Below are positions 1,890-30,163 of a DNA stretch of 36,513 bases, piece after piece. A program made the position numbers and the translations under genes. Numbering within the stretch: the stretch's first letter is position 1; every line of letters starts with the position of its first letter. The DNA is from Clostridia bacterium (GTDB lineage: Bacteria; Bacillota; Sulfobacillia; DUSP01), in NCBI GenBank assembly GCA_012842575.1, contig DUSP01000127.1:1-36513 (forward strand), written 5' to 3'. The notes under the pieces are model-generated. The model was not told the DNA's origin, did no database searches, and worked only from the letters and a program-made list of their open reading frames with translations.

Positions 1890-3635
1890 TTACACCTCCG
1901 GCGAGTCGAGCTTCTGCGCGTCAAGTTTATTTATCAGCGCCCTGACAGATTTCTCGAGTTCTCTCCATGTTTCCTCGTAGGCTTCGTCGGAAAGCCCATA
2001 CGGGTCACCGACATCGACCTCTCCTCTTCCCTCAATTGGCACCCAAGAGCCCCCTCCCTCGTCTTGATTTCGTCGATCTTTGGCATGGATCTTTTGTTCG
2101 GGAGGTGCTAAAAGCCCCGCATATTCCTTCAGCGTAAAGATGCGGTCGGCTTTCTTTGGTTCTTGCCTTCTCAACATGTCCCTCTGAAAGGCGGTCATGG
2201 TCAATACGAGATCGGCTTTCTCTATCATCTCGGAGTTGACTCTCCTCGAGCGATGACGCGAAAGGTCTACACCGTGTCTTCGGGCGACGTTTCTGGCCTG
2301 AAGAGATGCCGGTTCCCCTTCTGCCGCCGCCATCCCGGCGGACTCCGCCACCCATGGTGGTTTCGCCAGATGGTTGAACAACCCTGCCGCCATGGGACTC
2401 CTGCACGTGTTTCCGGTGCACACGAAAAGGACCTTTTTTGTCCCTGGGGGCTTTGTGGCTTTTTCTTCCCCGCATCCCCCCGGAGGTGTCTTCACGTTTT
2501 CGGGAACGCTCTCGGCGTTTTCGGGAAAGCTCTTAACGGTTTCGGGAAAGCAACGAAAGTCGGCGGCCCTCCTCAGCCTGTTCATAATAGCTAAGCCCAA
2601 TCCCGTCGAGCAGAACCCTTCCGCCACCACCGTTTGGACCCCCGCGTCGTCCATTTCCCTCAAACACCCAAAAAGGCGCGAAGCCACTTCCCTCAAGTGC
2701 TCCCTCGACCCTACCGTCATCACCACGACCCCTTCTTTGAAGTGGCGGCGATACGCTTCCTCGGTTTCCTCGGAAGCGAGGATGCCTACCGGTGCTCGGG
2801 TCTCGTCTAACAAGGATCGTACCAGACGGATGGCGCGCCTTGCTATGTCCTCGGTGCTATCGGGCATTCTGGGATCCGGCTCCACGAGCCATACGGTCGC
2901 TTTGGGCGAGTAATGCCGATATTTCTGTCCGGGCGACCTCGGTGGACTCGAGTCTGCCGGGGACAAAGCGCCGTCCACCCGTGGATCCACCGTGACCCCT
3001 GGGACGAACGGGCGGAGGTCTTCGATCGTTATGTATCCAGGTCTCAGGATGAGGGGTTTATCTCCCGATATATCGAGTACCGTGGACTCTACCCCGATAC
3101 CCGTCGGCCCCCCGTCGATTACGGCATCTATTCGTCCGTCCAGATCATGAACAACGTGTTCGGCAGTGGTCGGGCTCGGATAACTTGAAATGTTAGCGCT
3201 GGGTGCGGCGATGGGAACCCCCGCATGTCGGATTATCCCTAAAGCCACGGGGTGGTCAGGCATACGGATTCCCACAGTATCCAGGCCGGCTGTAACGATG
3301 TCCGGGATCAAATCGGACCGCTTGAACAATATTGTCAGCGGCCCGGGCCAGAAAGTTCGCATCAATGTCCGTATCTGGGGCGGAATCTCCGTCACGAGGG
3401 GCCTTACCTCATCGAACGACGAAACATGCACTATGATGGGGTTGTCGGCGGGCCTTCCCTTGGCTTCAAATATCCGTCGCACTGCTTGGGCGTCGAGGGC
3501 ATTGGCCCCGAGGCCGTAAACCGTCTCCGTAGGGAACGCAACCGTCCCGCCGGATCTGAGAATGGCGCCCGCCAAAGAAAGTACCGCCTCGTCCGGCTGT
3601 CGCGGATCAACCCGGTACACCGGAGTCCTACCCAT
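1890..3635 (-). CDS. sua5-ywlE: Fusion protein: threonylcarbamoyl-AMP synthase (Sua5/YwlC) + low-molecular-weight phosphatase (YwlE)
   Basis: The N-terminal ~350 residues are TsaC/Sua5: a YrdC domain (GGTVAFPTETVYGLG, RPADNPIIVH, PSANISS) plus the Sua5 C-terminal domain after SPGQKYRHYSPKA. It makes threonylcarbamoyl-AMP for the t6A37 tRNA modification. From about residue 400 follows a low-molecular-weight protein phosphatase with P-loop CTGNTCRS and general-acid motif DPYG. The B. subtilis equivalent, YwlE, is a protein-arginine phosphatase. The linker is three 7-codon repeats (FPETVKS, FPENAES, VPENVKT). The ORF track starts at GTG 3647; I prefer ATG 3635 (MGRTPVYRV), preceded by AGGTGA at good spacing. 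Its stop codon is shared with the downstream ribosome binding region. In Bacillus these are ywlC and ywlE, separate genes. Confidence 0.93.
   Translation of the reverse strand: MGRTPVYRVDPRQPDEAVLSLAGAILRSGGTVAFPTETVYGLGANALDAQAVRRIFEAKGRPADNPIIVHVSSFDEVRPLVTEIPPQIRTLMRTFWPGPLTILFKRSDLIPDIVTAGLDTVGIRMPDHPVALGIIRHAGVPIAAPSANISSYPSPTTAEHVVHDLDGRIDAVIDGGPTGIGVESTVLDISGDKPLILRPGYITIEDLRPFVPGVTVDPRVDGALSPADSSPPRSPGQKYRHYSPKATVWLVEPDPRMPDSTEDIARRAIRLVRSLLDETRAPVGILASEETEEAYRRHFKEGVVVMTVGSREHLREVASRLFGCLREMDDAGVQTVVAEGFCSTGLGLAIMNRLRRAADFRCFPETVKSFPENAESVPENVKTPPGGCGEEKATKPPGTKKVLFVCTGNTCRSPMAAGLFNHLAKPPWVAESAGMAAAEGEPASLQARNVARRHGVDLSRHRSRRVNSEMIEKADLVLTMTAFQRDMLRRQEPKKADRIFTLKEYAGLLAPPEQKIHAKDRRNQDEGGGSWVPIEGRGEVDVGDPYGLSDEAYEETWRELEKSVRALINKLDAQKLDSPEV
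2490..2552. repeat. 21-bp tandem coding repeat, three copies, in the Sua5–YwlE linker
   Basis: Units 2490–2510, 2511–2531 and 2532–2552 share the core TTTCGGGAA. Each equals seven codons, giving the FPE(T/N)-rich linker. Frame-preserving, and analogous to the repeat linker of the neighbouring fusion. Confidence 0.88.
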
Positions 3636-3712
3636 ATGGTCTATCACCTCGTCCGCTCTCCCGGACCACGAGAGGTTCGAGAACTTTCATAAGGGCCTTA
3701 ACGATATCCGTA

Positions 3713-10569: not shown

Positions 10570-13500
10570 TCAGTCGGTAGCTTCGGAGGCATCCTCACTC
10601 TCTTCCTCCATAAAGGCCGCGAACATAAAGGTCGCGAAGACCTCTGCCTTGAACACCATTACTAGTTCGCCGGGATTGCCGGAATTCCTCTCCGCCATAC
10701 CTTTATTATCTCCCATAGATTCCAATTTAAACCTGCCCTCGAAATAGCCTAAGCCGTCACTCTTGACCAGGATACTCACTTCTCTTGGGAGTGGCCCGAA
10801 GACAAACACTTTGACCCTCCCGTATCTGGCATGATACCAAAGTCCGTCCAAACGAACTCGAGCGTCCACCGCTTCCAAAGACGGTATCTTCCTCACGGTA
10901 ATCAGTACGGGAACCGGATCTGGACCGGGTACGTCCCCCGACGGCATAGCCCCAACCAGCGGTCTTACGGTTACGGAAAACCGAGCGTCACTCCGCGTGA
11001 CCGTTACCGGTATCGCGGCCAGGACCTCCCCTTTGTCGGCATCTTCCAGGATAACGTATCCGTAGTAGACGCCTTCTTCCTGGGGGAGGCTGATCTTTAC
11101 TTTAAACCGAAGCCTTTCTCCTTCTTTAATCGGTAAGACATCTAGGCTTTCGGGGAGCTGCCCCGTCAAGGCCTTTCCTTTCGCCGGTATATCGAGGAGG
11201 ATCTCGGGCTTTACCGAGATCATGTCGTGCTGATAAATCACCTCACTACTGAATTTACAGGTAACCGCCCCGCTCCTTATGTCGGAAGTCTCGACATAAG
11301 CCACATACTTCCCGGGAAGTGGATCCTTGACCCAAATCTCTTCACAGGGTACGCCCCGTCGGGCCGAGGCAGCCACCTCCTTCCAGCCGGCAGAAGCCTC
11401 GTCGTACCTGTATAGGAATATATCGAGGTCCGCGCCCGTACTCCCGGGCTCACATGCCTTCACAAAGAGCCAGCGTGCTCCCTCCTTTACCACCCCGATC
11501 TCCCCCACGCCGGCCTCTTCGGCATCCACCTCGAGGATCTGCGATACCACGCTCCGCGAAGGAGAAAGGCCGACACCTTCTATTCTTACGTTCTTTTCCC
11601 CGGACATATTTATGATTTCAATATCGCGCTCCGTTTGCGGACCTTCCCCCGCCCCGACGAAGACGTCAAGGCCCGAGGGCTTCGCGAAATTCCCCTGGAG
11701 TCGCACTCTGAGCTGGTAATCCGACGAAGAAAGCCCATACAAAGAACAAGCGGGATCACTCAACACCACGATCTCCCAGACTCCGGGTTCGGGGTCTTGA
11801 AACACCTTTACGTCCATATCCCCTTGCGGGGTGACGGATCTCACGCCTTCAACGGGCAGGAGGGGCTCCATCCTGCCCACAAAACCGCCGGAATAGGCAA
11901 TCCTTCCGCCAGGGGCATAAATCATCATGGCGACCCTCCCTGCGGAAGACCCGTCACGCCCAATACTAGACCTGAGGGACACGAATAGGTCACTCCCGAA
12001 GGGCGGCACTTCGACGAAATATCTGCGGAAAGCGGCCGGTGCGAGGTTATCATTATGAGCGGTGCTCCAGATATTAGATTCGTCGAGCTTTTCCGGCACC
12101 ACCAAAGTTTGAAGGATTTCCACCTCGGTACCGTACGATTCGGGGTCGTCGCCCTCCACGACGGCGCTATAAAATCCGGGTTCACGAGATGGGCAGTAGT
12201 CGATGGGAAGGGTTCTTTCCCTCACCGGCAGCACCGTCAGAACGCTTTGAAACATCCGGATCCACGGAGGGAGGCCACCGAACTCAAGCCGGTAAGGTCT
12301 CGGAGACAGGTTGGCGATATAGTATTCGATTCGACCGGGGGTCTCGTCTTTCACGAATATCCCGCCGTCTTGAAAACCGCCCCCGACTTCAGCGACGACC
12401 CTCATCTCCGAAACCCGTTCAAAGCGCGTCAATTCGTTGTACGCGCGATTGACGTCCACCAATCCGTGACCCTGTTCCGTAGGAGTAAGCCCTTGTATGG
12501 GCCTACTTCCCATGAGAAGGGCCCGGCGAACCGCTTCGGCTCTCTCCCTTGAGTTCAGTTTTGCAGCGGCGGGCGTCTCTAAGAGCAGCGCCAACGCACC
12601 CGCAACGTGCGGCGCGGCCATACTCGTCCCTTCGAAGGTCTCGTACCCGGATTCGTTGAGCCACAAAGGAACGCACGACGTAGCACACGCCGGCCCCAAA
12701 ACATCCGGAAGGAAGCCGCCGTCAGCCCTAGGGCCTACGCCGCTATACGGCCAGAGGCCCTCTTTCGGCACCACGTAACCGTAATAGTGCTTCCACATGG
12801 ATGGCGACATGTAGCCGCCTACAGTTATCGAGCCGTAGGCCCCTCCCGGGGCCGAAGCGCTCCCGAGCCCCGGACCTTCGTTGCCCGCCGAGATCACAAA
12901 AGTGACGCCGTATTTACGCGCGAGCTCCTGTATCATCTGGGATTCCGCAGTGAAACTCCCACTTCTGTCAAGGGACCCACCGATACTCACGGATATGACG
13001 TCCGCGCCGTTTTGGGCAGCATACTCGAGCGCCCGGGCGATGTTTTCCCAGGAACCCCTTCCGCAGGAATCCATGGCTTTCAGGCACATGATGGCGGCGC
13101 CGGGGGCTATGCCGCGCATTCCCTCGTTTGCCCCGGGAACGCCCGGTCTATAGGCCGCCGCGATCCCAGCCACGTGCGTCCCGTGCCCGTTGCCATCAAA
13201 CCCGAGCGTGACCCACCGCCCGCTTTCATTGATCTCGCTTACCACGAACGGAACTCCCGTCTTCGCACCGGGACTTCGCGGGGCCCCTCCGAAATACCCC
13301 ACATCGCCGGATACCTTGTACGGTTTCATTCCTACTTCATCCCTCAAGTCCCAGTCGTGGTCGGTATCCACGAACACGGTATCATACCGCCCGCGCTTTT
13401 CGGTATCCACTAACAGGACGAAGAAACTGTCGAAGGATGTTCCGTTCTTATCGAGATCGCCCCCACACGGACTATCCCGGTCTATGTCCGTTTCCCTGAG

Positions 13501-15255
13501 AAAACCGTAGCGCAGTTGCCCGCTTTTGCTCTTCGTGGCTATAGGACCTATCCAAACCTCGCCGGCCTCAGTCATCACTTTTTCGCCGAAACCGACCCTT
13601 TGGCCGAAAGCCCCTACGCTACCGCCCCCAAGAGGGGCAATCACGGATTCTCTGGTTGAGACGAAACCCTCGCCGCTGAAATCCTTCCAGTCTATGATCT
13701 TGTGCTCACCCTGCGGACCAAACCTCAGGTCCGGGTGGGTCACGTCTATTCCCGTATCCACGATGGCGATGACGGCACCGCGACCCGTAGCCCCGGTCCT
13801 GGCCACGAAAGAGGGAACGGAAATGGCCGAAGTATTGATGTCGAATCCCGAGGAATCGTATACGATACTACGCGGTACCTGACCGGCTGCCGCCACCTTT
13901 ACATGCGAGCCATCACTTCGGGTATGAAGGCCGGACACCCATGAGTCAACGCTACGAGAACCGGTGGCACGGACGTCTTGGGATCCGGGCGCGAATTCCT
14001 CGGCCGGCTCGACGTCGACGAATATCGCCCGCTGGTTTTGCCCGAATACGATGAATACCTCGTCAAAAGGCTTGATTTCCCTGGGGTTACTTCTCTTGCT
14101 CTCTCGGTATATCAGGGCATCATTGCTCAACTTCACTTTGACGACTCCGACGGCGGCTTTCCCCGCCGGGTCGGCCTTTGTCACGTCACCTGACGGCAAC
14201 GTACGACCGGGAACGGCTGGCTCGAAAACCCCCACTTCTCCCACACCTATGGCCGCATACGGCCTGATCTCAAGTACCGCCTCACCTGTATCCGTGTCCG
14301 CCACGCCGCTCACGGCATTTTCCGCGTTCGGGACCACGTTCGGAGCGCCGTTGACGTTCCCGGCGCTGCCAGCATCACCCGGACCGCGCACACCTGGCGG
14401 CGAACTGGAAGATTTCTTCGGAACGGATCCCGATACCTTGACTACGACACCCGAATAGTCGTAGTCATTTCCAAAAAGGACCAGAATACGCCTAATTATG
14501 GCCGCCGCTTCAGCTCTCTTGGTATATTCGTTCGGTCTGAAGGTGCCGTCGGGGTACCCCCGCATGAGACCTCTTCCGAACGCAAAAGATACCGAGTCTT
14601 CGGCCCACTCGGGAATGGAAGTAGCATCCTTAAATCGGGAAGCAAGAAGCGGTGAGGCAAAGGGTACAGCCGGGGCGTCCAGGCCCGATCCGGCCGTAGC
14701 TTCTCCGCCGGCCCCCCTTTCTTGTGAACCGCCACCAGACCGCATCGAGTCGGGCGACTTACCCATTCCGTAATAAACAGCGCGCATCAACATGGCCGCA
14801 ATCTCGGCCCTGGTGACGTATTCCTCGGGACGGAAGGTGTTGTCGGGGTACCCCGAGACGAGCCCCAATTCGGCGGACAGTGTTATGTAACCTCTCGCCC
14901 AATGGGTGTCAGGTACGTCTCGGTAAGAGCGGACATACGGGGAGGCCGCAATTTCCTGGGCGGCCGAATTCAAACCGAGCCCCCCCACCAAAAGCTTGGC
15001 GAATTCCGCCCTCGTCACAGGTTTTTCGGGAAAGAAAAACCCCTCATCGCGCCCCGATACAAGCCGCTTTGATGCAAGATGGTATATGTCCCTTTCAGCC
15101 CAGTGGCCTTCTACATCCCAAAAGCGAGGAACCGGTTGGGCCGCTTCTGCCCGTTTCACCCCGGCAGAACCGCATGGACTCAGGGTACCGACTATGAGTG
15201 CTATGGCCACTGCGGATGAGACCACAAGCCGCGACGGGATTCCCGCGAGTCTCAA
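10570..15255 (-). CDS. SLH-domain-anchored subtilisin-family (S8) serine protease
   Basis: Large secreted protease of 1561 residues. A signal peptide (residues 1–38, ending AEA) is followed by three S-layer homology domains at about 45–95, 112–160 and 207–260, each with the TRAE or KRAE core, which bind cell-wall polysaccharide. The S8 domain carries the catalytic triad Asp500 (IVDTGID), His691 (NGHGTHVAG) and Ser878 (GTSMAAPHVAG). The Asp–His spacing of about 190 residues is far longer than in subtilisin and includes an insertion around DLDKNGTSFDSF. Residues 950–1561 look like several beta-sandwich domains. TTG start overlaps the ctp stop by four bases, so the two proteases are translationally coupled. 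The C-terminus holds a 15-bp tandem repeat. Substrate unknown. Confidence 0.95.
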   Translation of the reverse strand: MRLAGIPSRLVVSSAVAIALIVGTLSPCGSAGVKRAEAAQPVPRFWDVEGHWAERDIYHLASKRLVSGRDEGFFFPEKPVTRAEFAKLLVGGLGLNSAAQEIAASPYVRSYRDVPDTHWARGYITLSAELGLVSGYPDNTFRPEEYVTRAEIAAMLMRAVYYGMGKSPDSMRSGGGSQERGAGGEATAGSGLDAPAVPFASPLLASRFKDATSIPEWAEDSVSFAFGRGLMRGYPDGTFRPNEYTKRAEAAAIIRRILVLFGNDYDYSGVVVKVSGSVPKKSSSSPPGVRGPGDAGSAGNVNGAPNVVPNAENAVSGVADTDTGEAVLEIRPYAAIGVGEVGVFEPAVPGRTLPSGDVTKADPAGKAAVGVVKVKLSNDALIYRESKRSNPREIKPFDEVFIVFGQNQRAIFVDVEPAEEFAPGSQDVRATGSRSVDSWVSGLHTRSDGSHVKVAAAGQVPRSIVYDSSGFDINTSAISVPSFVARTGATGRGAVIAIVDTGIDVTHPDLRFGPQGEHKIIDWKDFSGEGFVSTRESVIAPLGGGSVGAFGQRVGFGEKVMTEAGEVWIGPIATKSKSGQLRYGFLRETDIDRDSPCGGDLDKNGTSFDSFFVLLVDTEKRGRYDTVFVDTDHDWDLRDEVGMKPYKVSGDVGYFGGAPRSPGAKTGVPFVVSEINESGRWVTLGFDGNGHGTHVAGIAAAYRPGVPGANEGMRGIAPGAAIMCLKAMDSCGRGSWENIARALEYAAQNGADVISVSIGGSLDRSGSFTAESQMIQELARKYGVTFVISAGNEGPGLGSASAPGGAYGSITVGGYMSPSMWKHYYGYVVPKEGLWPYSGVGPRADGGFLPDVLGPACATSCVPLWLNESGYETFEGTSMAAPHVAGALALLLETPAAAKLNSRERAEAVRRALLMGSRPIQGLTPTEQGHGLVDVNRAYNELTRFERVSEMRVVAEVGGGFQDGGIFVKDETPGRIEYYIANLSPRPYRLEFGGLPPWIRMFQSVLTVLPVRERTLPIDYCPSREPGFYSAVVEGDDPESYGTEVEILQTLVVPEKLDESNIWSTAHNDNLAPAAFRRYFVEVPPFGSDLFVSLRSSIGRDGSSAGRVAMMIYAPGGRIAYSGGFVGRMEPLLPVEGVRSVTPQGDMDVKVFQDPEPGVWEIVVLSDPACSLYGLSSSDYQLRVRLQGNFAKPSGLDVFVGAGEGPQTERDIEIINMSGEKNVRIEGVGLSPSRSVVSQILEVDAEEAGVGEIGVVKEGARWLFVKACEPGSTGADLDIFLYRYDEASAGWKEVAASARRGVPCEEIWVKDPLPGKYVAYVETSDIRSGAVTCKFSSEVIYQHDMISVKPEILLDIPAKGKALTGQLPESLDVLPIKEGERLRFKVKISLPQEEGVYYGYVILEDADKGEVLAAIPVTVTRSDARFSVTVRPLVGAMPSGDVPGPDPVPVLITVRKIPSLEAVDARVRLDGLWYHARYGRVKVFVFGPLPREVSILVKSDGLGYFEGRFKLESMGDNKGMAERNSGNPGELVMVFKAEVFATFMFAAFMEEESEDASEATD
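10609..10638. repeat. 15-bp tandem repeat at the 3' end of the S8 protease gene
   Basis: CATAAAGG(C/T)CGCGAA occurs twice back to back (10609–10623, 10624–10638), encoding FATFM and FAAFM. It lies about 40 bp before the stop codon, in the same 3'-end position as other duplications here. Confidence 0.9.
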
Positions 15256-23457: not shown

Positions 23458-24078
23458 ATGACCGAACACGCCGATATCGGCCACCTGAACCCGGCTTTGA
23501 AGGATCTTGTGGAGGAGCTCGTCTTTGTATCAAAACGCCTTTACGGCCGTGGGCTAGTGGCCGGTACGGGCGGCAACATCAGCGTGAGGGTCCCCGGGCT
23601 TGGCCTGATACTCATCAAGCGCAGCGGGGTTTGTCTCGGCGACGTAGTGGAAGATGACTTCCTCGCGGTGAACTTCGAAGGTGACATCGTATCCGCATCG
23701 AAGGAAGAGGGGATCGTGCCCTCTAAGGAGCTGCCCTTTCACCTCGCCATCTATTCAGTTCGCCCTGACGTGAATTCGGTGATCCACACCCATTCTCCTT
23801 ATTGCACCGCATACGCTGTTTCTGGAAAAGATCTATCGGCTGTTACCGCGCAGGCCGAATCAGGGCTCGGGCGGGTGCCGCTGATCCCATTCGCCCCTCC
23901 GGGCTCCGATCGACTCGCGCGGCTTGTGGCAAAGACATTCGGGGAACACGATGTTAGAGTCGCGCTTCTCGAAGGACACGGGGTAGTGGCGGTAGGACGT
24001 ACTGTGAAGGAAGCGTACTATACGGCGGACCTCGCCGAAGAGACGGCCAAGGTTTGTTATCTCGTCGAGAAAATGTAA
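23458..24078 (+). CDS. Class II aldolase/adducin family protein (fuculose-phosphate aldolase-like)
   Basis: Zinc-dependent aldolase, 206 residues. The phosphate-binding GTGGNISVR, the catalytic glutamate in PSKELPFHLAIY, the two zinc histidines in IHTHSPY and the third in LEGHGVVAVG are all visible. The family includes L-fuculose-1-P and ribulose-P aldolases and dehydratases; which sugar phosphate is used cannot be told. It precedes the MttB-type genes by about 190 bp of repetitive spacer, so cotranscription is possible but not certain. A G-rich stretch (GCGGGGGGC) lies before ATG. Confidence 0.88.
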   Translation: MTEHADIGHLNPALKDLVEELVFVSKRLYGRGLVAGTGGNISVRVPGLGLILIKRSGVCLGDVVEDDFLAVNFEGDIVSASKEEGIVPSKELPFHLAIYSVRPDVNSVIHTHSPYCTAYAVSGKDLSAVTAQAESGLGRVPLIPFAPPGSDRLARLVAKTFGEHDVRVALLEGHGVVAVGRTVKEAYYTADLAEETAKVCYLVEKM

Positions 24079-24097
24079 CCGGTCAGAAAATGTAACC
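24067..24097. repeat. Duplicated 3' end of the aldolase gene
   Basis: GAGAAAATGTAACC, containing the stop codon, recurs as CAGAAAATGTAACC after three bases. The following 160 bp to the mttB start are further degenerate A/G-rich repeats, for example AGTGCGCTAAGAGGGC and AGTGCGCCAAGAGGAC, with no gene. Confidence 0.85.
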
Positions 24098-24265
24098 AAG
24101 AGAACGTCTAAAGAGAGTGTCTGAGAGACAGCCTCGAGAGAATGCCTCAAGAGAGCGAAAAGAATGCCCAAGCAGCGCCTAACATAGTGCGCTAAGAGGG
24201 CAGTGCGCCAAGAGGACACTGTGCCAGGAGAATACGCCCAAGAACTGCGAAAGGAGAGAGCCGTC

Positions 24266-25726
24266 ATGAGGGCAAACCAGGTAATTCAAGCTGCTCCGGA
24301 ATTTCGGGTCTTATCCCGCTCCCAGATGGAAGAGATCCACAGAAGAAGCCTCCATATCCTCGAGCGCACCGGTGTCGCGGTCTACCACGAAGAGGCGTTG
24401 CGACTGCTAAAGGAGGCCGGGGCATACCTGGCGGGAGACAACCACGTCCTTATCCCCCCCGCCCTAGCCGAAGAAGCCCTCTCCTGGGCCCCGTCCAGCG
24501 TGACCATCTACTCGAGGGACGGAGAGCCTGCCATGTACCTCGAGGATTCGAGGTCCTATTACGGCACGGGGGCGGACTGTCTCTACATCATAGACCCCTA
24601 CACAGGGCAGAGGCGTAACTTCGTCAGCGCCGACCTGGTGGCGGGAATGAAGGTATGTGATGCCCTCCCCAACATCGACTTCGTCATGTCAATGGGGATC
24701 ATATCCGACGTCCCGCGCGAAACCTACGACATCCATCAGTTCGTGATCATGACGGCCAACACCTCAAAGCCCATAGTATTCCAAGCCCAGACGCCCGAAA
24801 TCTGCAAGACCATCATAGAGATGGCGGCAGCGGTGGCAGGAGGACGGGACGCCCTCCGCATGAGGCCGTTCATCATCCTCTACGCGGAGCCGAGTTCGCC
24901 GTTACGCCACTCCCATGAGGCTCTGGGGAAACTCCTGGCCATGGCCGAAGCGGGCCTTCCTACCGTTTACGCGCCGGGCATCATGGTGGGCGCCACTTCT
25001 GCCGTGACCTCCGCCGCCGCCCTCATCCAGGCGAACGCGGAGATATTAAGCGGCCTCCTCATAGCCCAGCTGAAGAGGAAGGGCTCGCCGTTCATCTACG
25101 GAGCGGGGACTCCTCCAATAGACATGGGGACTATGGTCTGTACGTATTCCGCCCCCGAGCACATGCTGAGACTTGCCGCCATGGCAGACATGGCCCGGTT
25201 TTACGACCTCCCCTCCTGGGGTTTCGCGGGCTGTAGCGACTCCAAGACCCTCGACCTCCAGGCCGCTGCGGAAAGCGGCATGTGGGCGGTGATTTCCGCC
25301 ATCACCGGGGCCAACCTCGTCCACGACGTCGGTTACCTGGGATCGGGCCTTACCATGTCCCTCGAGATGATAGTCCTCAACGATGAGCTCATAGGAGCAG
25401 TCAAATCATTCATGGCCGGCATAAAGATGGACGACGAGGCCTTTGGCGAGGACGTGATCCACAGGATAGGCACTGGCGGTCACTTCCTGGGAGACGACCA
25501 TACGCTGCGCCACTTCAGGGGGAACTGGATGCCGCGGCTATTCGACAGGTCAAACTACGCCTCCTGGGAGGCGGCCGGGAAACCCGACCTTCACTCCAAG
25601 GCGAACGCCAAGGTGAAGGAGATCCTCGCCGGTCACACTCCAAAGCCGCTGCCCGAGGAGAAGATGGAGGCGTTGCGGCGCATCGTGGAAAGATTTGAAA
25701 GAGAGGATGGTCGCCTACCGAAATGA
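24266..25726 (+). CDS. MttB-family (COG5598) corrinoid methyltransferase homologue 1, pyrrolysine-independent
   Basis: Homologue of trimethylamine methyltransferase MttB and its non-pyrrolysine relatives, which move a methyl group from quaternary amines such as glycine betaine to a corrinoid protein. Signatures include YYGTGADCLYIIDP, DALPNIDFVMSMG, ILYAEPSSPLRHS, FIYGAGTPPIDMGT, FAGCSDSKTLD and the GANLVHDVGYLGSG segment. The frame has no in-frame UAG, so it belongs to the non-Pyl branch. ATG 24266 is chosen over the ORF track's 24203 because AAGGAGAG lies seven bases upstream. The stop overlaps the next start as ATGA, indicating translational coupling. No corrinoid protein, activase or second methyltransferase lies in the window. 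Substrate unknown. Confidence 0.9.
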   Translation: MRANQVIQAAPEFRVLSRSQMEEIHRRSLHILERTGVAVYHEEALRLLKEAGAYLAGDNHVLIPPALAEEALSWAPSSVTIYSRDGEPAMYLEDSRSYYGTGADCLYIIDPYTGQRRNFVSADLVAGMKVCDALPNIDFVMSMGIISDVPRETYDIHQFVIMTANTSKPIVFQAQTPEICKTIIEMAAAVAGGRDALRMRPFIILYAEPSSPLRHSHEALGKLLAMAEAGLPTVYAPGIMVGATSAVTSAAALIQANAEILSGLLIAQLKRKGSPFIYGAGTPPIDMGTMVCTYSAPEHMLRLAAMADMARFYDLPSWGFAGCSDSKTLDLQAAAESGMWAVISAITGANLVHDVGYLGSGLTMSLEMIVLNDELIGAVKSFMAGIKMDDEAFGEDVIHRIGTGGHFLGDDHTLRHFRGNWMPRLFDRSNYASWEAAGKPDLHSKANAKVKEILAGHTPKPLPEEKMEALRRIVERFEREDGRLPK

Positions 25727-27882
25727 CCTCGCGGAGGCTCGGGTTAGGAATCGACACAGGGGGAACGTATACAGACGGTGTTCTTTTGGACTTCGATAAG
25801 AACGAGGTCGTATCCGCCGCGAAGGCTCTGACGACTCATGACAATTTAGCGGTGGGGATAAGAGAGTGTTTGGGCCGCCTTGCCATAACCGCGCCCGAAG
25901 AGGTCGTACTCGTCGCCCTTTCGACCACGCTTGCCACCAACTCCATAGTGGAGGGTCGGGGGAAGAAGGTGGGCGTGGTACTAATCGGCCCGGAGGAAGT
26001 GAAGGACCTCCCGTCGGAACGCGTCTTGAGGGTTCGGGGAGGCCATGACGTAAACGGAAACGAGATCGAAAGCCTTGACATCGTGACGCTGGCCGAGTGG
26101 GTCAAAAGCGCACAGAAGGACGTAAGCGCCTTTGCCATATCAGGTTACATGAGTGTTCGGAACCCTGAGCACGAAAAGGCGGCGAGGTCCGTGATCCAAC
26201 GTGAAACCGGCCTTCCCACCGTATGCGGCCATGAGCTCACCACGGAACTCGGATTCAAGGAAAGGACTATTACGGCGGTCTTCAACGCCAGGCTCATACC
26301 CGTAATATCGGATCTCCTCGACGCCGTAAAGTCCTCGCTCTTGGCCTCCAATATCAAGGCCCCTCTGATGGTAGTCAAGGGCGACGGGGCGCTCATTCAC
26401 GAATCCGTAGCGCGTCTTAGGCCGGTGGATACCATCCTCTCGGGTCCGGCCGCCAGCGTGACGGGGGGAATGTTCCTCACCGGCCTCGGAGAGGGCGTAG
26501 TTGTGGATATAGGTGGGACCACTACGGACATTGCCGTCCTTCATGAGGGAAGGCCCTATGTAGACAAGGAAGGGGCGACGGTAGGAGGCTGGCGTACCAG
26601 GGTCAAAGCCGCCGACATCACGACCCTTGGTGCGGGGGGAGACAGTTACATACAGGTCGGCAGGGACGGGGTCATTAAGGTAGGACCTAAGAGAGTCGTG
26701 CCCATTTCATACGCCTGCCACGATAACGAGGCCCTCGCAATGGAGATCTCGGAGATCGCAGACGAGGTGGTCGGAGCCGGGAGTCGTACGGCCCGGGGGC
26801 GAAAGGGCGGTTACTGGGATCCTCTTTTCTTTCAGCCAGTCGACATCCTGATACCAAACGGCCTAATGCCAAATGGTTTAATACCAAGCGGCGCCGCGGC
26901 CGGCGAACCCGGATCTCGCGAATACCGCGCCTCATGCGATGCAAGATCAGACGAAAGAGCCCGTGACGAAAGATCTTATACAAATATTCATACAAATAGC
27001 GAAAAAGCGGTGCTTTCGTTGCTCAAAGACGGCGCGCACACCCTTCGTTACGTGGCCGCCGCTTTGAACAAAGATGTCGACCTCCTTCCGATCATGAGTT
27101 TGGTGGAGCGTGGCTTAGTGACGCTCTCTTCCCTCACGCCTACCGACATACTCCACGTGACCGGGGAGTTTACGCTCTGGAACAAGCAGGCAGCGGAGGC
27201 CGCATGCCTTGTAGAAGCCTCGAGAGCGGGGCTTGACCTCCAGGGCTTTATCTATCGCGTTAAGGAAGAAATGACTCAAAAAATCGCCGCTGCGATACTG
27301 GAGAAACTACTTTCCCTCGAAATGGATAAAAAATCGCCTCGCGGTTTCCAGGAAATGTCTGGATCGGAACTTGACGCCTTCGTCCGAAGAATTCTTCACC
27401 GCGACGGCGCGGAAGTATCAGTAGTCCCCAGGGTCAGACGACCGCTGGTAGGGCTCGGCGCCCCGGTCGGGGTTTACCTTCCCGCCGTGGCCCGACGCCT
27501 CGGGACCGCCGTGTTCGTTCCGCCCGAGGCGCCATGGGCTAATGCCATAGGGGCCGTGACCGGGAGCGTATCCGAGGTGGTCGAGATCCTCATCCATCAG
27601 GACCCGAGCGGTGGGTACGTGATGTTTTGTCCCGACGAAAGAAAGGTCTTCGATGACCTCGAAGAAGCCAAGCGGCACGCAGAGCGGATCGCCCGTGAAA
27701 TGGCGCTTGCGGCCGCTAAAGCAGCGGGCGCTGAAGATCCCGCTGTCAGCGTCCGGACCGAAGAGTCGTGGTCTACGGTCGGCGGAGGAGACCGTCTGCA
27801 CGTGCGTACCAGGGTCGTCGCCCAAGCCTTTGGTAAGCCTGGGTGGAAAGCAGGGCTGGAAAGCCGGGACGTGAGGTCGTGA
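25723..27882 (+). CDS. Hydantoinase-A/oxoprolinase-like ASKHA ATPase
   Basis: 719 residues. The phosphate-1 motif GIDTGGTYTDGVLLD, the ATTxATN-type motif (STTLATNSIVEGRG), SGPAASVTGG and the phosphate-2 motif VVDIGGTTTDIAVL (around residue 260) place the first ~370 residues in the HyuA/oxoprolinase family. An adenosine-type motif GLGAPVGVYLPAVA lies near 575. Between, residues about 380–430 are a low-complexity insertion with IPNGL/MPNGL repeats, followed by a winged-helix-like stretch (EKAVLSLLKDGAHTLRYVAAAL). No HyuB partner is present. It overlaps MttB homologue 1 (ATGA) and the DUF1638 gene. Since RACo corrinoid activators are also ASKHA ATPases, an ATP-dependent role in corrinoid methyl transfer is possible, as is hydrolysis of an N-methylated cyclic amide; both are inference. 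Confidence 0.83.
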   Translation: MTSRRLGLGIDTGGTYTDGVLLDFDKNEVVSAAKALTTHDNLAVGIRECLGRLAITAPEEVVLVALSTTLATNSIVEGRGKKVGVVLIGPEEVKDLPSERVLRVRGGHDVNGNEIESLDIVTLAEWVKSAQKDVSAFAISGYMSVRNPEHEKAARSVIQRETGLPTVCGHELTTELGFKERTITAVFNARLIPVISDLLDAVKSSLLASNIKAPLMVVKGDGALIHESVARLRPVDTILSGPAASVTGGMFLTGLGEGVVVDIGGTTTDIAVLHEGRPYVDKEGATVGGWRTRVKAADITTLGAGGDSYIQVGRDGVIKVGPKRVVPISYACHDNEALAMEISEIADEVVGAGSRTARGRKGGYWDPLFFQPVDILIPNGLMPNGLIPSGAAAGEPGSREYRASCDARSDERARDERSYTNIHTNSEKAVLSLLKDGAHTLRYVAAALNKDVDLLPIMSLVERGLVTLSSLTPTDILHVTGEFTLWNKQAAEAACLVEASRAGLDLQGFIYRVKEEMTQKIAAAILEKLLSLEMDKKSPRGFQEMSGSELDAFVRRILHRDGAEVSVVPRVRRPLVGLGAPVGVYLPAVARRLGTAVFVPPEAPWANAIGAVTGSVSEVVEILIHQDPSGGYVMFCPDERKVFDDLEEAKRHAERIAREMALAAAKAAGAEDPAVSVRTEESWSTVGGGDRLHVRTRVVAQAFGKPGWKAGLESRDVRS
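26851..26892. repeat. 15-bp coding repeat in the hydantoinase-like gene
   Basis: ATACCAAACGGCCTA, ATGCCAAATGGTTTA and ATACCAAGCGGC encode IPNGL, MPNGL and IPSG. It marks the low-complexity insertion between the ATPase core and the winged-helix-like stretch. Confidence 0.9.
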
Positions 27883-28634
27883 TGGAAGGTCGCGACGGTA
27901 GTGGTGTATGTAAGAATGAGAATAAGAGTGAGGGCGCTAGAGGCACCGGAAAGACGAGGATATTCGCGTGTCAGACCATAAAGGAAGAACTCCTGACGGT
28001 CGTCGAACGACTCCCCGAGGTCCAACGCGCTGCGCTCGAGGTCGAGTTTTTGCCGTACGGACTTCATCGTACACCCAAAATCCTTGGTGACGAGTTGAGA
28101 CAAAGACTCGACATGTCACGGGGCGCGAGTACGATCATCTTGGGTTATGGTCTGTGTTCCAATGGTGTCGTAAATCTCTCTCCGGCTCGGGGTCAAAGGT
28201 TGGTGATGCCGAGGGTACACGATTGTATCAGTATTCTCCTGGGTTCCAGGGCAGCTTACGACGAGGAGTTCAAGGCCCAACCCGGTACCGTATACCTGAG
28301 CAGGGGATGGATAGAATCAAAGGGCGACCCCTACTCGGAGTTCCTCGATTACACCTCGAGGCACGGAGAGGAAACCGCACGGTGGGTTATCGGCGAGGAA
28401 TACAAAAACTACACGCGTGTCTGTTTCATCGATACCGGGCTGCCGCGTATAGAAGAGTTCAGAGCCTACTCAAAGAGGGTGGCGGAGTTCCTCGGCCTAC
28501 GTCACGAAGAAAGGAAGGGTTCCCAGAGGCTTTTGGAAAAGCTACTGTTGTTTGGAGTAGGCGGCGAACCCGACGATGACGAAATACTGGTCATTGAGTA
28601 CCCTAACGGTATTGAGCAGGAGATGTTTTTTTGA
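27882..28634 (+). CDS. DUF1638 protein
   Basis: About 250 residues. Family motifs are FACQTIKEEL near the start, LHRTPKIL, ILGYGLCSNGV, the conserved PRVHDCISILLGS and YLSRGWIESKGDPYSEF. The conserved Cys and His residues suggest a metal or corrinoid contact, but no activity is known. DUF1638 genes are repeatedly found beside corrinoid methyltransferases, which fits its place between two MttB homologues. The start is ATG 27882, overlapping the previous stop by one base, with GAGG five bases before; the ORF track starts 13 codons earlier. The first ~25 residues are low-complexity. The 3' end is tandemly repeated. Confidence 0.85.
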   Translation: MEGRDGSGVCKNENKSEGARGTGKTRIFACQTIKEELLTVVERLPEVQRAALEVEFLPYGLHRTPKILGDELRQRLDMSRGASTIILGYGLCSNGVVNLSPARGQRLVMPRVHDCISILLGSRAAYDEEFKAQPGTVYLSRGWIESKGDPYSEFLDYTSRHGEETARWVIGEEYKNYTRVCFIDTGLPRIEEFRAYSKRVAEFLGLRHEERKGSQRLLEKLLLFGVGGEPDDDEILVIEYPNGIEQEMFF

Positions 28635-28688
28635 GCAGAAATGTTTTTTTGAGCAGGAGACGTTTTTGGGAGATGTTTTCTGAGTAGG
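28612..28688. repeat. 18–19-bp tandem copies of the DUF1638 gene end
   Basis: TTGAGCAGGAGATGTTTTT, TTGAGCAGAAATGTTTTT and TTGAGCAGGAGACGTTTTT follow in line, with a fourth weak copy to 28688. The first contains the last codons and abuts the stop. They form the whole spacer to the next gene. Confidence 0.93.
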
Positions 28689-28702
28689 AAAGGAGAGGCG
28701 AC

Positions 28703-30163
28703 ATGGAAGCCATTGTAGGGCCAAGAGCTGATCGGGTTTGCCGCAAATCCCTCGGATTGCGCGTGCTGGAGCCGGACCAAATCGAAGATATTCACCAAGC
28801 AACTCTGGAAGTGCTCGATAGAACCGGGGTTGAGGTATACAACGACCGTGCCCTCGATATATTGAAGCGAAACGGCGCCCGGGTACGAGGGCGGCGGGCG
28901 CATCTTCCCGCGTGGATGGTGGAGGAAGCGCTGAGGAGCCGCCCGAGGCGTGTGCCGATCGGGGACCGGGGGGACGGCCGGGCCATGTTACTCGAGTCGG
29001 ATAGGTTTTACTTCGGGACCGGCTCGGACACCCCGTTCGTCCTCGATCCGTTTACACAAAAACGGCGCCCCGCCACGAAACTCGACGTTCAACAGGCCAC
29101 CTTGGTTTCGGATGCACTCCCCAACATCGATTTCGTCATGTCCTTAGGTCTTGCCTCCGACGTACCGGCCAAGACATCGGACCTCCACCAGTTTGAGGCC
29201 ATGATCTTGAATACGAAAAAACCCATCATCTTCACCGCTCATGACGCTCAAGGGCTGCTCGATATCCTGGAAATGGCCGCTATAGCCAAGGGCGGGGAAG
29301 AACGACTCCAAGAAAACCCCAACATCATCCTATATGCAGAACCCAGTTCACCGCTGATGCATTCCGACGATGCCCTCGAAAAGCTCATGATTGCGTCCGA
29401 GAGGCGGATTCCGGTCATTTATACACCCGCCGTCATAGTGGGCGCCACGGGACCCGTGACGGTGGCAGGCGCAATAGTCCAGGGGAACGCCGAGCAGCTG
29501 AGCGGGCTCGTCATACAACAATTGGTGGCCAAGGGTGCTCCGTTCATTTACGGAGGGGGCATACCGGTGATGGACATGGTCACGTCCGTATGCACGTACG
29601 CGGCCCCGGAACTACACCTCGCCAACGTGGTCCTTGCAGAGATGTCTCGGTTCTACGGCTTACCCGTGTTCACCACGGCAGGATGTAGCGACTCCATGTT
29701 ATTCGATCAGCAGGCCGGCATCGAGGCGGGCTTTACCATAATGCTCAACGCCTTGAGTGGCGCCAATCTCATTCACGACGTGGGATATCTGGGATCCGGT
29801 ACCACATCTTCCCTGGAAATGCTCGTGGCTTGCGATGAAGTCATCGGCCTCGTAAAGCGCATCGTGGCCGGACTGGATACGAGCCGCGAAGCCCTGGCAG
29901 TGGATCTCATTCATAAAGTGGGACCCGGAGGTCACTACCTGGCGGAGGAGCATACCTTACGGAACTTCAGGAAGGAACTGTGGTTCCCAAGCCCCGTCAC
30001 TAACCGACAAAACTACGACGGTTGGGTGGCCCAGGGGTCAAAGACCATGGGTGAACGGGTCCGAGAACGCATAAAGGAAATCTTGGGGAGCCACAAGCCT
30101 CCTGCTCTCGACCCAGATAGCCAGAAAGCCATAGCCGAAGTAATAAAACGGAGGGAAAGGTAG
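28703..30163 (+). CDS. MttB-family (COG5598) corrinoid methyltransferase homologue 2, pyrrolysine-independent
   Basis: 486 residues, clearly paralogous to homologue 1: YFGTGSDTPFVLDP, DALPNIDFVMSLG, ILYAEPSSPLMHS, FIYGGGIPVMDMVT, TAGCSDSMLFDQQ and GANLIHDVGYLGSG align motif for motif, and both end with the EHTLRNF/DHTLRHF region. No in-frame UAG. The two differ at scattered positions in the middle of the barrel, so different methyl donors are likely. AAGGAGAGG sits four bases before ATG. It closes the plus-strand run aldolase–MttB–HyuA-like–DUF1638–MttB. Confidence 0.9.
   Translation: MEAIVGPRADRVCRKSLGLRVLEPDQIEDIHQATLEVLDRTGVEVYNDRALDILKRNGARVRGRRAHLPAWMVEEALRSRPRRVPIGDRGDGRAMLLESDRFYFGTGSDTPFVLDPFTQKRRPATKLDVQQATLVSDALPNIDFVMSLGLASDVPAKTSDLHQFEAMILNTKKPIIFTAHDAQGLLDILEMAAIAKGGEERLQENPNIILYAEPSSPLMHSDDALEKLMIASERRIPVIYTPAVIVGATGPVTVAGAIVQGNAEQLSGLVIQQLVAKGAPFIYGGGIPVMDMVTSVCTYAAPELHLANVVLAEMSRFYGLPVFTTAGCSDSMLFDQQAGIEAGFTIMLNALSGANLIHDVGYLGSGTTSSLEMLVACDEVIGLVKRIVAGLDTSREALAVDLIHKVGPGGHYLAEEHTLRNFRKELWFPSPVTNRQNYDGWVAQGSKTMGERVRERIKEILGSHKPPALDPDSQKAIAEVIKRRER

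Follow-up and report, generated by a model that had tools for sequence, protein, structure and literature searches.

A HyuA-like ATPase and a DUF1638 protein encoded between two MttB genes: a probable partnership in corrinoid-dependent methyl transfer

Introduction

What function might be served by a hydantoinase-like ATPase and a DUF1638 protein that are encoded between two methyltransferase genes, in an operon that carries no gene for a corrinoid protein? The question is raised by contig DUSP01000127.1 of a Clostridia bacterium (assembly GCA_012842575.1). The contig was analyzed in its entirety, and its 36,513 nucleotides are referred to here as the window (contig C33 of the assembly, which totals 2.47 Mb and is 92.8% complete). 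The two methyltransferases belong to the MttB superfamily and lack pyrrolysine. Between them lie the genes for a HyuA-like protein, an ATPase of the ASKHA fold, and for DUF1638. On the basis of the analysis described below, the operon is rather more probably than otherwise a corrinoid demethylation system in which the HyuA-like protein and DUF1638 act as an ATP-driven pair that maintains corrinoid proteins beside the reductive activase RACo.

Results

The run of five genes had been pointed out in a preliminary description of this DNA, and it is present as claimed. All five genes lie on the + strand and each has a Pfam match. The first encodes a fuculose-phosphate-aldolase-like class II aldolase (23458..24078; Aldolase_II, E 3e-50). 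It is followed by the first non-pyrrolysine methyltransferase, MttB1 (24266..25726; MTTB, E 5e-95), the HyuA-like ATPase (25723..27882; Hydant_A_N, E 1e-30, and Hydantoinase_A, E 7e-30), DUF1638 (27882..28634; PF07796, E 2e-42, 145 bits versus a cut-off of 27), and the second non-pyrrolysine methyltransferase, MttB2 (28703..30163; MTTB, E 8e-104). The open reading frames as called run from 23458-24078, 24203-25726, 25723-27882, 27843-28634, and 28703-30163. MttB1 more probably begins at the ATG at position 24266 than at the GTG at 24203 that opens the longer frame, because the Shine-Dalgarno sequence AAAGGAGAG lies upstream of that ATG. Likewise, the start of DUF1638 is more probably the ATG at 27882 than the GTG at 27843. 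The junctions overlap as reported, with ATGA at 25723-25726 and TGATG, a one-base overlap, at 27882. Both the HyuA-like protein and DUF1638 are encoded by single-copy genes in the assembly.

When 60 related genomes were searched and 85,462 species genomes scanned, 86 loci were obtained, that of the window included. In the bacterial part of the clade to which the window protein belongs, 19 of 26 loci have at least one neighbor from among corrinoid protein, MttB, DUF1638, pterin-type methyltransferase, and RACo, and 17 of 26 have at least two, whereas none of 15 control loci of ordinary HyuA proteins has neighbors from a corrinoid methyltransferase system. The presence of these neighbors, RACo in several of the loci, bears out the earlier assignment of the locus to corrinoid-dependent methyl transfer. 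An example of a full arrangement is L126, where the operon encodes a corrinoid protein, two MttB proteins, the HyuA-like protein, and DUF1638, together with a pterin-type methyltransferase and a RACo that has a 2Fe-2S domain. Locus L059 reads, in order, BCCT (the betaine transporter family), corrinoid protein, MttB, MttB, HyuA, and DUF1638, and in L058 pylD and a PylC-like gene are situated between two corrinoid protein genes. In three Desulfobacterales operons (L118, L126, and L104) an ACT-domain protein and a 3-phosphoglycerate-dehydrogenase-like gene were observed near RACo and the pterin methyltransferase.

A corrinoid protein gene lies close to HyuA in loci L057 to L061, and its absence from the window could be taken as a sign that the genes came together by chance or are the decayed remains of a complete cluster, with the corrinoid protein and the joint function lost. 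This explanation is highly improbable, given that the reading frames are all intact and translationally overlapping, that the four invariant residues of DUF1638 described below are kept, and that the genome can supply seven corrinoid proteins.

The HyuA-like protein and DUF1638 are linked well beyond shared operons. In the class to which the window belongs, the HyuA-like subfamily occurs in 5 of 154 genomes; DUF1638 scores above the Pfam cut-off in all five of these versus 5 of the remaining 149 (Fisher p 4e-7, a value that ignores shared ancestry). The genes need not be adjacent, being on different contigs in G046 and ∼12 kb apart in G001. DUF1638 was also found in 45 of 50 further subfamily genomes, most of them selected because DUF1638 is not encoded at the HyuA-like locus itself, and in most of the 45 the genes are unlinked. 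Among the 50, the alphaproteobacterial genomes all have DUF1638 (20 of 20, versus a background of 53 of 289 in a sample of Alphaproteobacteria; p 3e-14, again ignoring shared ancestry). The co-occurrence extends over several bacterial phyla and the methanogens. A Lentisphaerae metagenome-assembled genome (MAG) contains a natural DUF1638-HyuA fusion in one open frame of 939 residues (L121, 7146-9965, +), with a complete DUF1638 domain at residues 34-223, a complete HyuA-like domain from residue 284, and both motif sets intact. The co-occurrence across phyla and the fusion in one genome make it probable that the two proteins act jointly to keep B12 machinery active. That DUF1638 recurs beside corrinoid methyl-transfer systems, as had been stated in the preliminary description, is seen in the relatives' loci and in the literature (PMC5764234, PMC12478193). 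In L246 and L247, whose genomes encode the HyuA-like protein elsewhere, DUF1638 adjoins a corrinoid protein, a pterin methyltransferase, or RACo. Both genes are present in a Ruegeria genome (L148). In this and another Rhodobacterales locus (L148, 5952-9998; L131, 6211-9986) the HyuA-like gene follows a glutathione S-transferase gene and a QueG-like gene, possibly by chance lineage synteny. The QueG family, that of epoxyqueuosine reductase, is cobalamin-dependent.

The HyuA-like protein contains the HyuA ATP-binding domains PF05378 and PF01968, and in the tree its clade is separate from ordinary HyuA (approximate likelihood ratio test of the Shimodaira-Hasegawa type, SH-aLRT, 98). A profile of the subfamily gives 646-856 bits in the five class genomes and at most 271 bits with ordinary HyuA; the lowest-scoring subfamily fragment, a broken copy, reaches 457 bits. 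The AlphaFold2 model (mean predicted local distance difference test, pLDDT, 85) is matched best in Foldseek by HyuA and acetone carboxylase (9h03, 5svc, and 6yra). Further down the list are RACo, the activator of hydroxyglutaryl-CoA dehydratase, and EutJ.

The preliminary description had offered two roles for this protein, that of an activase and that of an amidase opening the substrate ring. As an activase, it would replace RACo or RamA in reducing the operon's corrinoid protein. The shared ASKHA fold, the RACo structure 3zyy among the Foldseek matches (E 1.7e-4), and the lack of a RACo gene on the contig speak for such a function, but the Pfam scan of the protein gave no Fer2, Raco_middle, or RACo_C_ter match, and no cysteine is found among the conserved columns of the subfamily alignment, which makes an iron-sulfur cluster of its own unlikely. 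Moreover, two RACo loci are present elsewhere in the genome, and a complete RACo, with its 2Fe-2S domain, is encoded in the same locus in several relatives. A substitute for an enzyme with which it coexists is thus very unlikely, and this role was rejected.

With respect to the second role, the HyuA-like protein and DUF1638 might phosphorylate an N-methylated compound, or open its amide or ring, before or after demethylation by MttB. The subunits closest to the protein by sequence and fold are indeed those of N-methylhydantoinase, caprolactamase, and acetone carboxylase, and a betaine-type transporter is encoded beside the locus in one relative. The partner subunit HyuB (PF02538), however, has no match in the whole of the 92.8% complete assembly, a result that weakens any amidase function. 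The pair is also common to methanogens, Bacillota, and Rhizobiales, which would be expected to differ in substrate; it is DUF1638 that the HyuA-like protein follows across phyla, and not a substrate pathway. Finally, the genetic tie of DUF1638 is to methionine synthesis rather than to amide catabolism (PMC5764234). Substrate handling is therefore considered improbable, if less so than the activase role. Given its membership in a distinct subfamily, its corrinoid-operon neighbors, its coexistence with RACo, and the lack of a conserved cysteine, the HyuA-like protein is in all probability neither a RACo substitute nor one half of a HyuAB amidase.

A third possibility is raised by a match to PF13941 (MutL/GlmL) of 31.8 bits in the window protein (cut-off 27) and of up to 42.8 bits in its relatives. 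According to this explanation the HyuA-like protein would be a general reactivase of cobalamin enzymes, of the GlmL/EutA type, that replaces corrinoid once it is damaged. Its clients would be methyltransferases and, in gut Clostridia, a mutase-like enzyme, with DUF1638 serving as the adaptor for the methyltransferase branch. The EutJ-like structures matched by the model are in keeping with it, as is an uncharacterized protein of ∼590 residues, referred to as c36, that is encoded in the HyuA-like locus of gut Clostridia (L089, 10086-11876; L091, 9994-11754; L096, 317-2074 on the - strand). Its C-terminal B12-binding domain carries the DxHxxG motif as DGHSYG; its N-terminal part matched no Pfam family or solved structure, and the PDB search hit the B12-binding part alone, weakly. 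Two of the genomes concerned, G163 and G168, lack DUF1638, and that of L091 has it. Such neighbors give hints that the HyuA-like family may serve B12 enzymes more widely. The best MutL match, however, covers positions 3-56 of 450, a short shared ASKHA motif that is found in other HyuA-type proteins too, and c36 is no more than a candidate B12 enzyme. A general reactivase is accordingly viewed as somewhat unlikely, although it is the most plausible of the alternatives.

DUF1638 was modeled by AlphaFold2 with a pLDDT of 89. Four of its residues, Cys 30, His 62, Cys 92, and Cys 115, are shared without exception by the 44 bacterial and archaeal sequences compared, their codons in the window beginning at positions 27969, 28065, 28155, and 28224 (27969..28226, +). 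In the model each is positioned just after a β-strand of the first domain, and together they suggest a metal or iron-sulfur site of the Cys3His type. A PDB sequence search with DUF1638 gave no significant match (E 0.3 or worse), and Pfam searched at a relaxed E-value with the DUF1638 alignment supported no other family. Foldseek also gave weak matches to BzdNO and to DR2241, a protein of the CbiX type, and these were set aside.

The MTTB domain (PF06253) is full-length in both methyltransferases, spanning profile positions 12-497 and 26-496 of 500. The two are 48% identical, whereas each is closer to another MttB of this genome, encoded on contig C133 (49% and 54%); a recent tandem duplication is thereby excluded. 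The preliminary description had called them pyrrolysine-free, correctly so: both have a cysteine (AGCSDS) where two other MttB genes of the genome have a TAG codon (GG*ADSK). In those two genes (C39, 1538-2938; C114, 2-1201; loci L019 and L026) a single in-frame TAG falls exactly at the pyrrolysine site. Since a clear PylS is encoded as well, the organism is probably a pyrrolysine user, and it very likely lives in part on methylated amines via pyrrolysine enzymes. A methylamine/pyrrolysine island on contig C11 (L020; 3212-3877, 3913-5160, 6290-7402, 8377-9168, 9319-10155, and 10213-11337) encodes two corrinoid proteins, a PylC-like ATP-grasp protein, PylS, a PylB-like radical SAM protein, and a dimethylamine methyltransferase that is apparently interrupted by TAG.

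As had been observed, no corrinoid protein, MtgA-type enzyme, or HyuB is encoded on the 36.5 kb contig; MtgA was not searched for in the rest of the genome. The contigs of this genome chosen for their corrinoid protein and MttB genes likewise revealed no methyltransferase II of the pterin/UROD type, the whole genome not having been searched for it. The corrinoid protein, by contrast, is missing from the contig and not from the organism. In addition to 12 MttB matches and RACo-type genes on two contigs, the whole assembly encodes seven corrinoid proteins that carry the B12-binding cap domain. Two of them are encoded near the C133 MttB, the closest relative of the window pair in this genome. With seven such genes elsewhere, a corrinoid protein supplied in trans would be usable by MttB1 and MttB2.

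The class II aldolase does stand at the head of the run, but it is not conserved: L093 is the sole related locus that has one, ∼7 kb away and on the opposite strand. It was rejected as a member of the pathway and is probably a bystander. Elsewhere in the window, two adjacent apparent gene fusions were observed, RpiB-DUF436 and Sua5 with a low-molecular-weight phosphatase domain (582-1889 and 1890-3647), together with a subtilase of 1561 residues that carries three S-layer homology stretches (10570-15255).

Discussion

That the HyuA-like protein and DUF1638 serve corrinoid methyl transfer is likely in view of their operon neighbors, their co-occurrence, and their fusion. The manner in which they might do so can be outlined as follows. 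MttB1 and MttB2 would demethylate an amine, quaternary or otherwise N-methylated, and pass the methyl group to a corrinoid protein whose gene lies in another part of the genome. Corrinoid proteins that become inactivated would be opened or remodeled by the HyuA-like protein at the expense of ATP hydrolysis, and DUF1638, presumably in direct contact with it and by virtue of its putative metal or iron-sulfur site, would help to restore or load the active cofactor. The pair would act in addition to RACo. The specific step proposed here, ATP-driven reactivation or loading, is put forward tentatively.

Several known systems bear on this proposal. Like the window proteins, MtgB of the MtgB/MtgC/MtgA system of Desulfitobacterium hafniense, MtpB, MtcB, and MtyB are MttB-superfamily members without pyrrolysine, and the nearest solved structure to MttB2 is a glycine betaine methyltransferase (9yce and 2qne; E about 5e-71). 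In the aligned glycine betaine methyltransferase chain the pyrrolysine column holds a leucine rather than the cysteine of the window proteins, and, unlike the MtgABC system, the window operon lacks genes for the corrinoid protein and methyltransferase II. The glycine betaine clusters of 'Ca. Formimonas warabiya' DCMF, Sporomusa ovata, and Ca. Frackibacter combine MttB genes with a gene annotated as hydantoinase A, HydA (PMC9768040), as does the window. In strain DCMF, whose cluster contains three MttB genes, HydA is among the most abundant proteins during growth on glycine betaine, and no role was proposed for it (PMC9768040). Such clusters differ from that of the window in possessing the corrinoid protein and methyltransferase II and in that DUF1638 has not been reported from them.

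For DUF1638, the split methionine synthase of Phaeobacter inhibens requires both this protein and a RamA-like gene; methionine rescues the DUF1638 mutant just as it does mutants of the synthase itself and of the RamA-like gene, and no specific proposal was made for the function of DUF1638 (Price et al. 2018, PMC5764234). In Ruegeria, DUF1638 rises on N-osmolytes (2025 PNAS, PMC12478193). In these two bacteria, as is proposed for the window, DUF1638 serves a corrinoid methyl-transfer system, although the HyuA-like protein is not implicated and the acceptor is homocysteine. The HyuA-like protein resembles RACo and RamA as an ASKHA ATPase linked with corrinoid proteins but differs from them in having neither an iron-sulfur domain nor a conserved cysteine and in coexisting with RACo. 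Its closest counterparts by sequence and fold are the ATP-binding subunits of HyuAB hydantoinases, 5-oxoprolinase, caprolactamase, and acetone carboxylase, from which it is set apart by its separate clade and by the lack of a HyuB partner in the assembly.

Certain observations weigh against a corrinoid maintenance pair. DUF1638 is missing from 5 of the 50 further subfamily genomes (G160, G163, G168, G171, and G175), some of which are incomplete MAGs; G171 and G175 are draft MAGs with HyuA-like genes beside methyltransferase genes. In archaea and Proteobacteria the HyuA-like gene lies mostly away from methyltransferase genes. The co-occurrence counts leave shared ancestry unaccounted for, the fusion is known from a single MAG contig, and 80 of the loci are the best-scoring ones rather than a random sample. 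Foldseek returned no confident fold for DUF1638 (best E 2e-3, TM-score 0.33), and the case for its metal site is for that reason built on conservation and strand positions. The literature search gave no biochemical evidence on the HyuA-like protein, and the HydA of strain DCMF is likened to it by annotation.

Among the papers searched, none connects HyuA-like proteins with DUF1638. Their linkage through co-occurrence, shared operons, and fusion gives DUF1638 a partner that can be tested. More speculatively, the two may constitute a widespread and previously unrecognized two-component, ATP-dependent machine for repairing or reloading the corrinoid proteins of methyltransferases. Such a machine would differ both from RACo/RamA and from the known reactivases of B12 mutases, would have as its hosts methanogens, anaerobic bacteria, and aerobic marine and soil Proteobacteria, and would include, in DUF1638, a new Cys3His metal or iron-sulfur site. 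If this is true, many proteins now annotated as N-methylhydantoinase A would be B12 maintenance proteins and not hydantoinases.

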